Shown: piece after piece, positions 26,579-37,667 of the stretch | Position numbering within the stretch: position 1 is the stretch's first letter | Layout: each line of letters begins with the position of its first letter | Source: Kosakonia arachidis | GTDB lineage: Bacteria; Pseudomonadota; Gammaproteobacteria; Enterobacterales; Enterobacteriaceae | Direction: 5' to 3' | Assembly: GCF_900116535.1 (NCBI RefSeq) | Contig: NZ_FPAU01000007.1 | Coordinates: forward strand, 1-64,000 | DNA: 64,000 nt | Program-made: the position numbers and the translations under genes | Notes under the pieces: model-generated | The model's database searches: none | What the model saw: only the letters and a program-made list of their open reading frames with translations | Told to the model about the DNA's origin: nothing

Positions 26579-27964
26579 TTACAAGGCCTTCAGTATCGCC
26601 TCTACACTCTTTTTCGCATCACCAAACAGCATCTGTGTATTCTCCTTAAAGAACAACAGGTTCTGCACCCCCGCGTAACCGGTGTTCATGGACCGTTTGA
26701 ACACTATCACATTCTGCGCTTTCCAAACCTCCAGTACCGGCATCCCGGCGATCGGACTGTGTGGATCGTTCTGCGCCGCCGGGTTCACCGTGTCATTGGC
26801 CCCTATCACCAACACTGTGTCGGTCTGGGCAAAATCCTCGTTGATTTCATCCATCTCCAGTACGATATCATAGGGCACTTTCGCCTCCGCCAGCAGCACG
26901 TTCATATGCCCCGGAAGGCGCCCTGCCACTGGATGAATGCCAAAACGTACATTCACCCCGCGCGCTCGCATTCTCTCTGTGATTTCCGCCACCGGGTACT
27001 GCGCCTGCGCCACCGCCATCCCGTAACCCGGCGTAATGATGACCGAGTCAGAATTCCTCAGCAGCTCCGCGGTTTCCTCTGCGCTGATTTCACGGTGTTC
27101 CCCCGTCGCCTCCTCGCTGGTAGACGCCCCGCCATCCGTGCCGAATCCTCCGGCTATCACGCTGACAAACGAACGGTTCATCGCCTTACACATAATGTAC
27201 GACAGTATCGCCCCTGACGAGCCCACCAGCGCCCCCGTCACGATTAGCAGGTCATTGCCCAGCATAAAACCTGCCGCCGCAGCAGCCCAGCCAGAATAGG
27301 AGTTCAGCATCGACACCACTACCGGCATATCCGCCCCGCCAATCGACGCCACCAGATGCCAGCCAAACGCCAGCGCAATCGCTGTCATCAGCAGTAAGGA
27401 TACCTGCTGCCCGCCACTCCCCGTGCGCACAAATATCACCAGCAGCACAAACAACATCACCAGTGCCGCAAGATTCAACGTGTGACGGTGCGGCAACATC
27501 AGCGGTTTCGAGGAGATTTTCCCGCGCAGCTTGCCGAATGCCACCACCGACCCGGTGAAAGTGACCGCCCCGATGAACACCCCCAGAAAGACCTCCGTCA
27601 GGTGAATGTTCTCCATCACGCCTGTTATGCCCGGCTCGTGGTCAATGAAACTGTTGTACCCCACCAACACCGCGGCAAGGCCCACAAAACTGTGCAACAT
27701 CGCCACCAGCTCCGGCATCTCGGTCATTTCCACCCGCCGTGCCAACCAGCACCCTGCCGTGCCGCCGATAACCATCGCCAGAAGTATCCACACCACCCAA
27801 CTGACCTCTGTTCCCAGAACCGTCGCCACCAGTGCAATCGCCATCCCGACAATACCGTATAGATTCCCCTGTCGTGATGTCTCGTGCTTCGACAGACCCG
27901 CAAGGCTGAAAATAAACAGAATGGCCGCCACAATGTATGCTGCTGTTACCCGTCCTCCGGACAT
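26579..27964 (-). CDS. pntB: NAD(P) transhydrogenase subunit beta (paralogous pntB)
   Basis: A 461-residue membrane protein, the beta subunit of proton-translocating transhydrogenase: about nine hydrophobic segments in residues 1-260, including [15 protein letters not shown] and [23 protein letters not shown], then the soluble NADP(H) domain III with [18 protein letters not shown] and a [29 protein letters not shown] block. With PntA it uses the proton gradient to drive NADH + NADP+ to NAD+ + NADPH. Eleven bases from pntA. Enterobacteria normally carry pntAB alone in the core genome; here the pair sits at the end of a catabolic operon and is probably a second copy dedicated to it. Confidence 0.93.
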
Positions 27965-27974
27965 GTGCTACCCC

Positions 27975-29510
27975 TTAATTCTTACGGAACATTTTCAGCA
28001 TGCGCTGCGTCACGGTGAAACCACCGAATATATTGATGCTGGCAATCAGGACCGCGATAAAACTCAGCACGCTGACCCAACCACCGTGCCCTATCTGCAG
28101 CAACGCCCCTACGACGATAATTCCCGAGATGGCGTTGGTAACCGACATCAGCGGCGTGTGCAGCGCATGGGAAACATTCCACACCACGTAGTAACCCACC
28201 ACACAGGCCAGCGCGAACACCGTGAAGTGTCCGAGAAACTCCCGTGGCGCCACACTCGCCAGCCAGCCGAACAGAGCAATGGCCAGCGCCATCAGCCCGT
28301 ATTTCCGCCACGGGCTGCCCGGTTTCTCACTCTCCGCAGTCTGAGCGGCTTTTGCCTGTGTGGCCTGCGGCTGCGGCCTGGCGGACACCTGTACTGCAGG
28401 CGCGGGCCAGGTCACTTCTCCCGCCCGCGTTACCGTCACGCCACGCACCACCACGTCCGCAAAATCAATGGTTATCGTGCCGTCTTTGTTCTGACACAGC
28501 AGCTTCAACAGATTCACCAGGTTGGTACCGTAAAGCTGGGAGGACTGAGTCGGCAGGCGCCCGGGTAAATCGGTGTAGCCGATAACTTTCACCCCGCCCG
28601 GAGTGGTGAACACCTCACCTGGCACGGTGTACTCGCAGTTTCCGCCGTTCTGAGCCGCCAGGTCCACCACCACACTGCCAGCCCTCATGGTATCCACCAT
28701 CTCGCGGGTAATCAGTTTCGGAGCCGGTTTGCCCGGTATCAACGCCGTGGTGACAATAATATCCACCTCCCTCGCCTGGGCGGCGAACAAGGCCATTTCC
28801 GCCAGGATAAAGGCGTCCGACATCACCTTCGCGTAGCCGTCGCCACTCCCGGCTTCTTCATTAAAATTCAGCTCCAGAAATTCGGCACCCATGCTTTTCA
28901 CCTGATCCTTCACTTCTGGACGGGTGTCAAACGCCCGGACCACCGCCCCCAGGCTACCTGCCGTCCCAACGGCGGACAGACCGGCCACCCCGGCACCAAT
29001 CACCATCACTTTCGCGGGCGGCACCTTACCGGCAGCGGTGATCTGCCCGGTAAAGAAACGGCCGAACTCATGGGCAGCTTCCACAATGGCCCGGTAACCG
29101 GCGATGTTCGCCATGGAGCTGAGTGCGTCAAGCGCCTGAGCACGGGAGATACGCGGCACACAGTCCATAGCCATCACTGTGATATTGCGTGTCGCCAGTT
29201 GCTGCAGCAACTCCGGGTTCTGGGCAGGCCAGATAAAACTCACCAGCGTGGCGCCTGCGTGAGGCAGGGATATTTCATGCGCCAGAGGGGCGTTCACTTT
29301 AAGAATGATATCAGCCTGCCAGACCTGCGCCCTGTCAGCCACCGTCGCGCCAGCGGCGCGATAGGCATCATCGTCAAAACTGGCCAGTTGTCCTGCGCCG
29401 CTTTCCACTGCGACACTGAAACCCAGTTTCAGTAACTGCTCCACGGTCTTTGGCGTCGCGGCTACCCGGGTTTCGCCGCTGAGCACTTCCATGGGGATCC
29501 CAATATTCAT
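27975..29510 (-). CDS. pntA: NAD(P) transhydrogenase subunit alpha (paralogous pntA)
   Basis: 511 residues from the ATG at 29510 ([12 protein letters not shown]); an upstream in-frame start at 29528 is unlikely. Soluble NAD(H) domain I contains the [13 protein letters not shown] start, [12 protein letters not shown], the glycine loop VIGAGVAGL (about 173-181), the [20 protein letters not shown] region and the mobile loop [16 protein letters not shown]. The C-terminal 110 residues carry four membrane helices. The sequence resembles E. coli PntA closely overall but differs at many surface positions. Co-location with phloroglucinol-type genes suggests a role in supplying NADPH to the reductase at 33820. 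Confidence 0.93.
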
Positions 29511-36303: not shown

Positions 36304-36356
36304 GACATTATTTCCTGAATAAAATTGATACCCCATGCGAATACAGAATGGATTAA

Positions 36357-37667
36357 TTATGCAATCGACACATCCTGTTTCCCCTTACATTTATCATTAA
36401 TCATAAAAATCAATACAGCGGCAATAAGGTCCATAACAATAAATGACATATATGCACCATCATAACCACCGGTATATTTAAGACTAATGGCAATGACAGC
36501 GAAACAACTTACTCGAAATAAACAGGCAATCGTGGATACCAGGCGATTCGCTGCCGCAAAATCATAGCGACCAAATACGGTACCAACCATTGATGTGCAA
36601 AGCTCTTTTATTCCTGCAATACTGGCACCAACCAGTAGCAGCGTAATATAGGTAAAAACCTCATTTCCCCGAATCAATAAAAAAGAATGAGTAATCGCGA
36701 AGAAAAAAGCATAAACAACACTTGTTTTACGGGTACCTATTTTGACGTCCACCCATCCCCAGAAATAACTGAAAATAGCGCAAATCAACGCTGCGGAAGT
36801 AAACATCCAGACTGCGGTTTCTTTCTCATAGCCAACCGAGATCAGCCGGGGAATAAGCTGACTGACGACACCAATATCCACCAACCAGAGCAAGCCATAG
36901 CCAACGGAGATTAACCACATTTCCCGGTCTTTAAATAAAACCCGGTAGGTAAACGTGCTCTGATAATCGGCCTGCATGGCAAGGTTGGTAGTCTGCTGTT
37001 CCCGGGAGATCGGTTCATTATCTGGATAAAGCCCCAATTCCTCAGGCGTATTGCGGATCCAGAATATCGAAATAATACCCAGTGTAATCAGCACGCCGCC
37101 GACAACGGCATAAGCGCCTGGGATACCGAACCGGTTGAAGAGAAAGAACATCAGGGGAATTAATGTCGCGGTACAAAATGACATTCCCATTGTTGCCCAC
37201 CCCAGCGCCAATCCTTTTTTACGCGGGAACCAACTATTTAGTAACGTTGCCGGAACATTAAAACAGCAGCCGGTTGCCAGCAAATTCATTAATGCCAGAC
37301 CGATGGCATATTCCATATAAGACGTTATCCGGCCGAACCAGATCATGGTCAAGCCAAGCGCTAACAACCCAATGATAGCAATTATTTTCGCGCCGCGTCG
37401 TTTAATCATTTCGGCAATAATCAGCGCACCAACAACACCTATCCAACCCGCAGGCGTCGAGAATGATAATAATGTTGCGAAATCCCAGCCATGCAGATCG
37501 ACAAAACTCTGGACAATAACGTTCAGCCCATCCGCAGTCCAGGCCGCAAAGTTGTAATACATCAACATGCTGAAGCCAACCATGCTCCAACCCCATGCAC
37601 CAAAATTACTACGTGTGACAGAAGAGTAAGATGTTGTCTGGCTCGTTATATTGTTTGTGTTTTGCAT
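36357..37667 (-). CDS. MFS transporter of the catabolic operon
   Basis: 436 residues from the ATG at 37667 (a GTG at 37676 is also in frame). Twelve hydrophobic segments, starting GAWGWSMVGFSMLMYYNFAAWTADGLNV, with WFPRKKGLALGWATMGMS after TM4-TM5, which resembles oxalate/formate-antiporter-like and aromatic-acid MFS carriers. The likely cargo is the operon's substrate (phloroglucinol, an acylphloroglucinol or a breakdown acid). First gene of the minus-strand set, downstream of a 512-base gap with repeated GACATTAGAA motifs. Confidence 0.83.
   Translation of the reverse strand: MQNTNNITSQTTSYSSVTRSNFGAWGWSMVGFSMLMYYNFAAWTADGLNVIVQSFVDLHGWDFATLLSFSTPAGWIGVVGALIIAEMIKRRGAKIIAIIGLLALGLTMIWFGRITSYMEYAIGLALMNLLATGCCFNVPATLLNSWFPRKKGLALGWATMGMSFCTATLIPLMFFLFNRFGIPGAYAVVGGVLITLGIISIFWIRNTPEELGLYPDNEPISREQQTTNLAMQADYQSTFTYRVLFKDREMWLISVGYGLLWLVDIGVVSQLIPRLISVGYEKETAVWMFTSAALICAIFSYFWGWVDVKIGTRKTSVVYAFFFAITHSFLLIRGNEVFTYITLLLVGASIAGIKELCTSMVGTVFGRYDFAAANRLVSTIACLFRVSCFAVIAISLKYTGGYDGAYMSFIVMDLIAAVLIFMINDKCKGKQDVSIA

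Follow-up and report, generated by a model that had tools for sequence, protein, structure and literature searches.

A putative reductive phloroglucinol degradation operon with a linked transhydrogenase in Kosakonia arachidis

The 64,000 nucleotides of Kosakonia arachidis DNA studied here (positions 1 to 64,000 of contig NZ_FPAU01000007.1, assembly GCF_900116535.1; hereafter the window) carry an operon that, judging from its sequence, very probably degrades the plant-derived aromatic compound phloroglucinol reductively, in the absence of oxygen, to acetyl-CoA and acetate, with an extra PntAB transhydrogenase closing the redox cycle. The initial annotation had proposed such a pathway, from ring to acetyl-CoA. 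Its core stands, given the clades of the ring-opening cyclase and the BKACE lyase, the diagnostic residues and the presence of a CoA transferase and a thiolase; the part to be corrected concerns the short-chain dehydrogenase/reductase (SDR) of the first step, which lies outside the clade of characterised phloroglucinol reductases (PGR). The accompanying remark that the pathway is known from strict anaerobes also needs correction: it was published in 2023 as widespread, and its listed hosts include a facultative betaproteobacterium, marine alpha- and gammaproteobacteria, mycobacteria and archaea (PMC10470551). In this known and widespread pathway four aspects appear to be new: the host lineage, the clade of the SDR, the linkage to pntAB, and the cupin. 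A copy carried by Enterobacteriaceae would open the pathway to genetic work and place it in facultative anaerobes, Klebsiella included, and it opens to test the second SDR clade as phloroglucinol reductase, the balancing by PntAB and the role of the conserved cupin.

In the proposed mechanism the SDR would reduce phloroglucinol with NADPH to dihydrophloroglucinol, which the metal-dependent cyclase (dihydrophloroglucinol cyclohydrolase, DPGC) would open to 3-hydroxy-5-oxohexanoate by retro-Claisen hydrolysis. The 3-hydroxyacyl-CoA-dehydrogenase (HCDH)-like TfD would oxidise this product with NAD+ to triacetate, and the BKACE enzyme (triacetate acetoacetate-lyase, TAL) would cleave triacetate with acetyl-CoA to acetoacetate and acetoacetyl-CoA, leaving the final conversion to acetyl-CoA to CoA transferase and thiolase. 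The proton gradient would drive the extra PntAB to convert TfD-made NADH into NADPH for the SDR, so that the overall reaction C6H6O3 + 3 H2O = 3 acetic acid would be redox-neutral. The phloroglucinol itself may be released from an acylphloroglucinol or a dihydrochalcone by a PhlG homologue.

All genes from the transporter of the major facilitator superfamily (MFS) to pntAB are intact minus-strand reading frames between 26579 and 37667, in agreement with the one-strand arrangement first described. Start codons were picked by us among in-frame candidates, and the family name of each operon gene was checked by Pfam or NCBIfam, with agreement in every case. The order MFS-ctfA-ctfB-cupin-SDR-TfD-DPGC-thiolase-TAL recurs in three other genomes with other flanking genes, so it is not due to chance. 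These sister operons, whose DPGCs are 90-92% identical to that of the window, belong to Klebsiella spallanzanii SB6411 (L014), to genome G230 (L011) and to a record named Martelella alba BGMRC 2031 (L013); two of the three genomes are placed in the window's family and the third is titled Klebsiella spallanzanii, and none of the three loci has pntAB or a PhlG gene in the compared stretch. Both the CoA transferase and the thiolase expected of the reductive pathway (PMC10470551) are present in the window cluster; subunit A scores 287 bits against NF007394, below the cut-off of 315. The MFS protein likely takes up phloroglucinol or a related anion. Between cyclase and thiolase lies an AT-rich gap of 293 bases (31644-31936) in which no gene was seen; the sister operons are gapped there too. 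Downstream of the operon, L013 contains a further CoA-transferase A/B and thiolase set (16530-20417). The species name of the L013 record (NZ_SZPQ01000021.1) looks wrong, since the record corresponds to a contig of G248, a genome placed in the same family as the window.

For comparison, 85 loci were collected: the window, L005, L008, L011, L012 and the best 80 of 263 confirmed loci from a genome scan, a sampling that favours near relatives. Between the window cyclase and its counterparts in the 80 kept loci, whose hosts are mostly clostridial, plus Klebsiella spallanzanii, identity is 76-92%, and at least 81% in 76 loci. Counting the window, the cyclase is accompanied by the SDR in 76 loci, TfD in 75 and TAL in 67, and all four core genes are found in 62; 13 loci are shorter than 9 kb, and some of more than 20 kb (L030, L037, L045, L075, L076, L080, L092) still lack at least one core gene in the compared stretch. 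Diagnostic residues have been defined for DPGC (Trp20 and Tyr22), TfD (absence of Lys56 and Asn221) and TAL (Trp in place of KCE Glu14) (PMC10470551). The window DPGC has W20 and Y22 at the positions equivalent to CsDPGC, as do 84 of the 85 aligned rows in total, with one gap, and the motif HTGTHCDAPRH noted initially is intact. The window TfD keeps the catalytic Ser/His/Asn residues, has a gap at the Lys56 position and Arg at that of Asn221, an Arg found in 75/75 TfD rows. In TAL, W17 occupies the KCE Glu14 position and the zinc ligands H49, H51 and E234 are in place, as had been reported; this Trp is present in 61 of the 67 rows with the window, the other six (L008, L012, L064, L073, L074, L077) having Ile or Met. 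Phylogenetic placement, suggested earlier as a check, came out in favour of cyclase and BKACE, both of which group with proteins from phloroglucinol-type clusters, and placed the SDR in the sister clade of characterised PGR. Two long branches served as root of the DPGC tree and one reference as root of the TAL tree, which was built quickly; in the TfD tree the reading was confined to the nearest rows.

The SDR step is the weakest, since the window SDR falls outside the 5g4k-type PGR clade and scores nearer to gluconate 5-dehydrogenase. We take 5g4k, whose listed title is silent on this, to be the PGR of Clostridium sp. ATCC BAA-442. In a maximum likelihood tree of 85 rows the window SDR belongs to a 13-row clade that is sister to a 65-row clade with 5g4k (100/99); together the two clades are supported by 99/98, apart from 1vl8, KduD and other outside rows (four other solved and three other SDRs). 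Solved SDRs in this tree were 5g4k and four others, and the program flagged long branches meeting. The 13-row branch by itself is weaker (99/50), rising to 100/92 once L064 is removed. SDRs of this clade occur in 13 of the 85 loci, and its members are the four Enterobacteriaceae, Acetoanaerobium, Alkalibaculum, other Bacillota, one actinobacterium, one Dehalococcoidia and G505. Motifs are common to both clades: among the 76 best SDRs, L-T occurs in all 76, F of P-x-x-F in 71 and R54 in 73, and P-x-x-F..x-L-T is shared by the window SDR and 5g4k whereas the four other solved SDRs have P-G and no L-T. Because of this tree position and these common motifs we predict, with lower confidence than for the rest of the pathway, that the window SDR represents a second phloroglucinol reductase clade. 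Locus L045 provides a link to the published cluster: its SDR is 58.5% identical to 5g4k, compared to 59.54% between CsPGR and the BAA-442 enzyme (PMC10470551), and six genes on from that SDR comes its lyase, matching the order implied by the published Clostridium scatologenes accession numbers. In L091, one SDR of each clade (9142-9936 and 12939-13733) stands next to the same cyclase.

Since the SDR has the Arg typical of NADPH enzymes and beta-strand 2 of the window TfD ends in an NAD-type Asp, as in the TfDs of the three sister operons, the pathway should consume NADPH and produce NADH. Among 75 TfDs this position is acidic in 41, and in 26 an S, T or N precedes an R. CsTfD prefers NADH, and Eubacterium oxidoreducens requires H2 or formate as electron donor (PMC10470551). 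Both pntA and pntB score above the cut-offs of their equivalog models and form a complete second copy, the core copy lying at G000:C6:1209128 with PntA 83% identical. In a degrader of catechin and phloroglucinol pntAB has been proposed as NADPH source or recycler (PMC12203004); in the window, in contrast, pntAB is physically linked to the phloroglucinol operon. A terminator scan found no terminator-like site between lyase and pntA; it gave 30 such sites against 20.7 expected, and a promoter scan 23 against 24.8 expected.

The cupin beside the SDR is conserved and lacks the usual metal ligands. Cupins of the TM1459 type have a four-His site, whereas the positions aligned with H52, H54, H58 and H92 are A54, S56, K60 and R94 in the window protein, with K60 conserved in 62/63 and R94 in 63/63. 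We propose that it may help the SDR or the cyclase to handle keto/enol forms. The word cupin is absent from the main text of PMC10470551. The cluster of mycobacterial L008 likewise carries a cupin, and the top NCBIfam model for the window cupin, NF050094, bears the name of a 'beta-D-galactosidase' from Mycobacterium tuberculosis (62 bits, below the cut-off of 175).

Compared with known systems, the window has the same four enzyme families, MFS transporter, CoA transferase and thiolase as the C. scatologenes cluster in its published description (PMC10470551), and its cyclase, dehydrogenase and lyase share the diagnostic residues given there; it differs in its Enterobacteriaceae host, sister-clade SDR, Crp-type regulator, extra pntAB and opposite-strand PhlG gene. 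The locus of Acetoanaerobium noterae DSL2 (L005, pTPELB2) has an SDR of the same clade (68% identity) and the order cupin-SDR-TfD-DPGC-TAL, but differs by a chalcone isomerase, a TfD with an NADP-like TR and a DPGC of 72% identity; its PhlG-like gene scores 22.1 bits, below Pfam's 22.7, and no CoA transferase or thiolase match lies within the 18.9 kb compared. That L005, with a chalcone isomerase (323.7 bits to 4d06), keeps the order SDR-TfD-DPGC-TAL counts for the pathway. The L005 record is a 2.6 Mb 'plasmid' with four annotated features and may be a mislabelled chromosome. Sodalis belongs to the Enterobacterales. One PGR homologue has been found by HMM in Sodalis ligni 159R (PMC9241852), and our literature search returned no title or abstract opening on this pathway in Enterobacteriaceae, although the 12,225 clusters of PMC10470551 may list Klebsiella. 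We tentatively put forward a more far-reaching reading, in which a facultative enterobacterium would have made an acquired clostridial pathway into a self-contained redox-neutral fermentation, with a second PGR clade, a metal-free cupin presenting the keto tautomer, an NAD-specific dehydrogenase, a dedicated proton-driven PntAB bridging NADH and NADPH, where Eubacterium oxidoreducens depends on H2 or formate from outside, and a PhlG-type feed from acylphloroglucinols.

The gene set was apparently acquired from strictly anaerobic bacteria, a case that rests on trees and on absence from congeners. Of 295 genomes of the family, 3 have a cyclase match of E 1e-40 or better, as do 2 of 394 genomes of the order, both counts including the window's genome; the match in the second order genome, G505, is 47% identical and limited to residues 6-181. 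Within the genus, one of 15 genomes, that of the window, has a full match and three others a partial one of 28%. The region from 19.9 to 39.2 kb is unmatched (E 1e-20) in 13 congeners save for short cross-matches, the core pntAB and a dispersed repeat; similarity to congeners resumes at 39.24 kb (90-91% with three, 76-79% with two more), and 5.0-20.75 kb is also missing from them save one 0.3 kb match at E 1e-60. The four enterobacterial DPGCs form one clade (99/97) amid Bacillota and other anaerobes, and the TALs behave alike, which suggests that cyclase and lyase came by one transfer, probably out of anaerobes, mostly Bacillota. Operon DNA identity is an even 76-79% across all pairs of the four hosts while that of an rpoB stretch is uneven (92% in the nearest pair, 85-86% in others and, with the 'Martelella' genome, 79-86% over three separate pieces) and flanking genes differ, suggesting movement among Enterobacteriaceae. 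The 7 kb rpoB stretch of the window's genome shares 97.6% identity with one congener and 91.9% with K. spallanzanii, which puts the genus near Klebsiella. The entry does not look recent, since the G+C content of the operon (51.6%) fits the host (rpoB stretch 51.8%), and base composition therefore gives no argument for a recent arrival. No clear attachment site was found among the repeats around the island. In G230 the operon is flanked by genes that we take to be of the folP-glmM and rimP-nusA-infB types, by the look of their reading frames a core chromosomal site.

A number of observations weigh against the proposed pathway or its unity. The best solved-structure match of the window SDR is gluconate 5-dehydrogenase 1vl8 (phmmer 191 bits, compared to 123.6 for 5g4k; pairwise 38% and 187 bits against 32% and 129 bits), and it carries TGRT where TR(S/N) is given for PGR (PMC10470551). 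The lyase exceeds no NCBIfam equivalog cut-off, scoring 235 against 430 for the 3,5-dioxohexanoate enzyme NF053538, and TfD was not found in the compared stretch of L045. Lyase and pntA are 70 bp apart with a short inverted repeat, seen by eye, and operon-linked pntAB occurs in the window alone, with no pntA or pntB match in the compared stretch of the 84 other loci. A LysR gene between the Crp-like gene and the MFS gene is full length in L014 and L011, only its first 46-48 codons being left in the window. Gene histories differ, which makes a mosaic origin of the operon possible instead of its transfer as one unit: outside the enterobacteria the nearest kin of the SDR are A. noterae, L065 and L035, those of the cyclase other clostridia, A. 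noterae being just 72% identical, and the enterobacterial TfDs stand apart, with the nearest outside row at a path of 1.79. The PhlG homologue is 6 kb from the operon on the opposite strand; it is unmatched in the genomes of K. spallanzanii and G230, and 'Martelella alba' has a 23% partial match. A search for chalcone isomerase, present in A. noterae, gave nothing in any of the four enterobacterial genomes, so the evidence does not extend to a full flavonoid route.

Other readings were weighed against phloroglucinol catabolism. The same ring chemistry might serve another substrate, such as a methyl-, acyl- or carboxyl-phloroglucinol or another cyclic 1,3-dione, cyclase and lyase taking the matching homologue; the SDR in the PGR sister clade, the two SDRs of L091, one per clade, and the nearby PhlG-family enzyme would all agree with this, yet we find it improbable, since the cyclase is up to 88% identical to clostridial cyclases whose loci have a 5g4k-type SDR, with W20/Y22 alike, TAL retains the triacetate-type Trp and the cyclase tree mixes loci of either SDR clade (L035 and L065 with L045; L090 and L091 with L015). 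Similarly unlikely is detoxification in place of catabolism, with PhlG deacylating antibiotics like the 2,4-diacetylphloroglucinol of rhizosphere pseudomonads and the operon clearing the product: a PhlG homologue does lie within the island and distant relatives are annotated on large Pantoea agglomerans plasmids, several from plants, but the CoA transferase, the thiolase and the second PntAB have the look of energy metabolism, and the operon exists without a PhlG match in two sister genomes and with a weak partial one in the third; both roles can hold together. That BKACE and the HCDH-like protein are lysine-fermentation (KCE) or carnitine-type enzymes can hardly be maintained, since, although KCE is the top NCBIfam name for BKACE (NF052387) and the HCDH families match, scores are 290.5 bits against a cut-off of 382 for KCE and 138 against 414 for L-carnitine dehydrogenase, Glu14, which binds the amino group in KCE, is Trp, Arg stands where Asn221 would bind CoA, the alignment has a gap at Lys56, the cyclase would be left without a role, and no other lysine-fermentation gene was recognised by eye among the listed reading frames.

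Coordinates and supporting evidence of the operon genes and of neighbouring features are collected in Table 1. The Crp-like gene precedes the operon in all four enterobacterial hosts. Scanning upstream of the genes for FNR/CRP boxes gave only matches with two or three mismatches, a scan made without a chance control.

Table 1. Features of the window in and around the putative phloroglucinol operon
Feature	Coordinates	Strand	Evidence
Crp-like regulator	38180-38860	-	Pfam HTH_Crp_2, cNMP_binding; 78-81% identical, same place in sister loci
LysR-type regulator, 5' stub	37942-38079	-	tblastn 58-59% over first 46-48 residues
MFS transporter, operon gene 1	36357-37667	-	Pfam MFS_1 7.4e-21; 82-88% identical counterpart at same position in three sister operons
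CoA-transferase subunit A (AtoD-like), putatively acetoacetate to acetoacetyl-CoA	35647-36303	-	TIGR02429, 201 bits, above cut-off
CoA-transferase subunit B	34986-35642	-	TIGR02428, 311 bits, above cut-off
Cupin, TM1459 fold	34627-34968	-	Metal-ligand positions without metal ligands
SDR, candidate NADPH phloroglucinol reductase, sister clade of characterised PGR	33820-34608	-	Tree; motif PTIFWTPLT, R54, catalytic S/Y/K
HCDH-like, candidate (S)-3-hydroxy-5-oxohexanoate dehydrogenase (TfD), NAD type	32878-33807	-	Active-site residues; Asp ending beta-strand 2
Predicted DPGC, cyclase family, ring opening	31937-32875	-	Identity to scanned loci; W20/Y22; tree
Acetyl-CoA C-acetyltransferase (thiolase)	30459-31643	-	TIGR01930, 480 bits, above cut-off
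Predicted triacetate acetoacetate-lyase (BKACE/TAL)	29581-30441	-	Pfam BKACE 1.4e-100; W17, H49, H51, E234; tree
pntA, second copy, proton-translocating transhydrogenase alpha	27975-29510	-	TIGR00561, 945 bits, above cut-off
pntB, transhydrogenase beta	26579-27964	-	NF006974, 895 bits, above cut-off
Outer membrane protein, Phenol_MetA_deg family	24257-25363	-	PF13557 2.9e-47
PhlG-family C-C hydrolase (phloretin/acylphloroglucinol hydrolase)	22458-23351	+	PF18089 3.1e-70, 236.7 bits; phloretin hydrolase 5xe5 4.9e-32
Tandem EthD-domain protein, just upstream of PhlG homologue	21650-22426	+	PF07110 1.3e-17, two stretches
Dispersed repeat	20786-20914	.	79-82% matches at many places in genus

The PhlG-family gene and the LysR stub had been overlooked in the initial annotation. 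PF18089 covers the PhlG homologue over the whole domain (5-223 of 223), and H, E, H and E, presumably the zinc ligands, align to 5xe5. It has domain and ligand residues in common with 5xe5 and PhlG (3hwp), but scores only 101.2 bits against the cut-off of 600 of the PhlG equivalog NF047887, so its acyl substrate cannot be named. PhlG-family genes were found in 16 of the 84 other loci. The distant relatives on the large Pantoea agglomerans plasmids (H42-H48) are about 26% identical, and 5 of the 7 records are annotated as 2,4-diacetylphloroglucinol hydrolase.

For the EthD protein, only the window's own copy was found at E 1e-15 among 398 sampled genomes of the phylum, there was no PDB match up to E 1, and one weak plasmid match was seen. 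A structure predicted without relatives was discarded (pLDDT 35), and the idea that it is a chalcone isomerase found no support. The Phenol_MetA_deg protein is a possible aromatic channel that might serve the pathway. The dispersed repeat we take, from its length and spread, to be ERIC-like. Further away, at 1987-2907, lies a fumarylacetoacetate-hydrolase family gene whose top NCBIfam name is 2,4-didehydro-3-deoxy-L-rhamnonate hydrolase, at 391 bits against a cut-off of 500.

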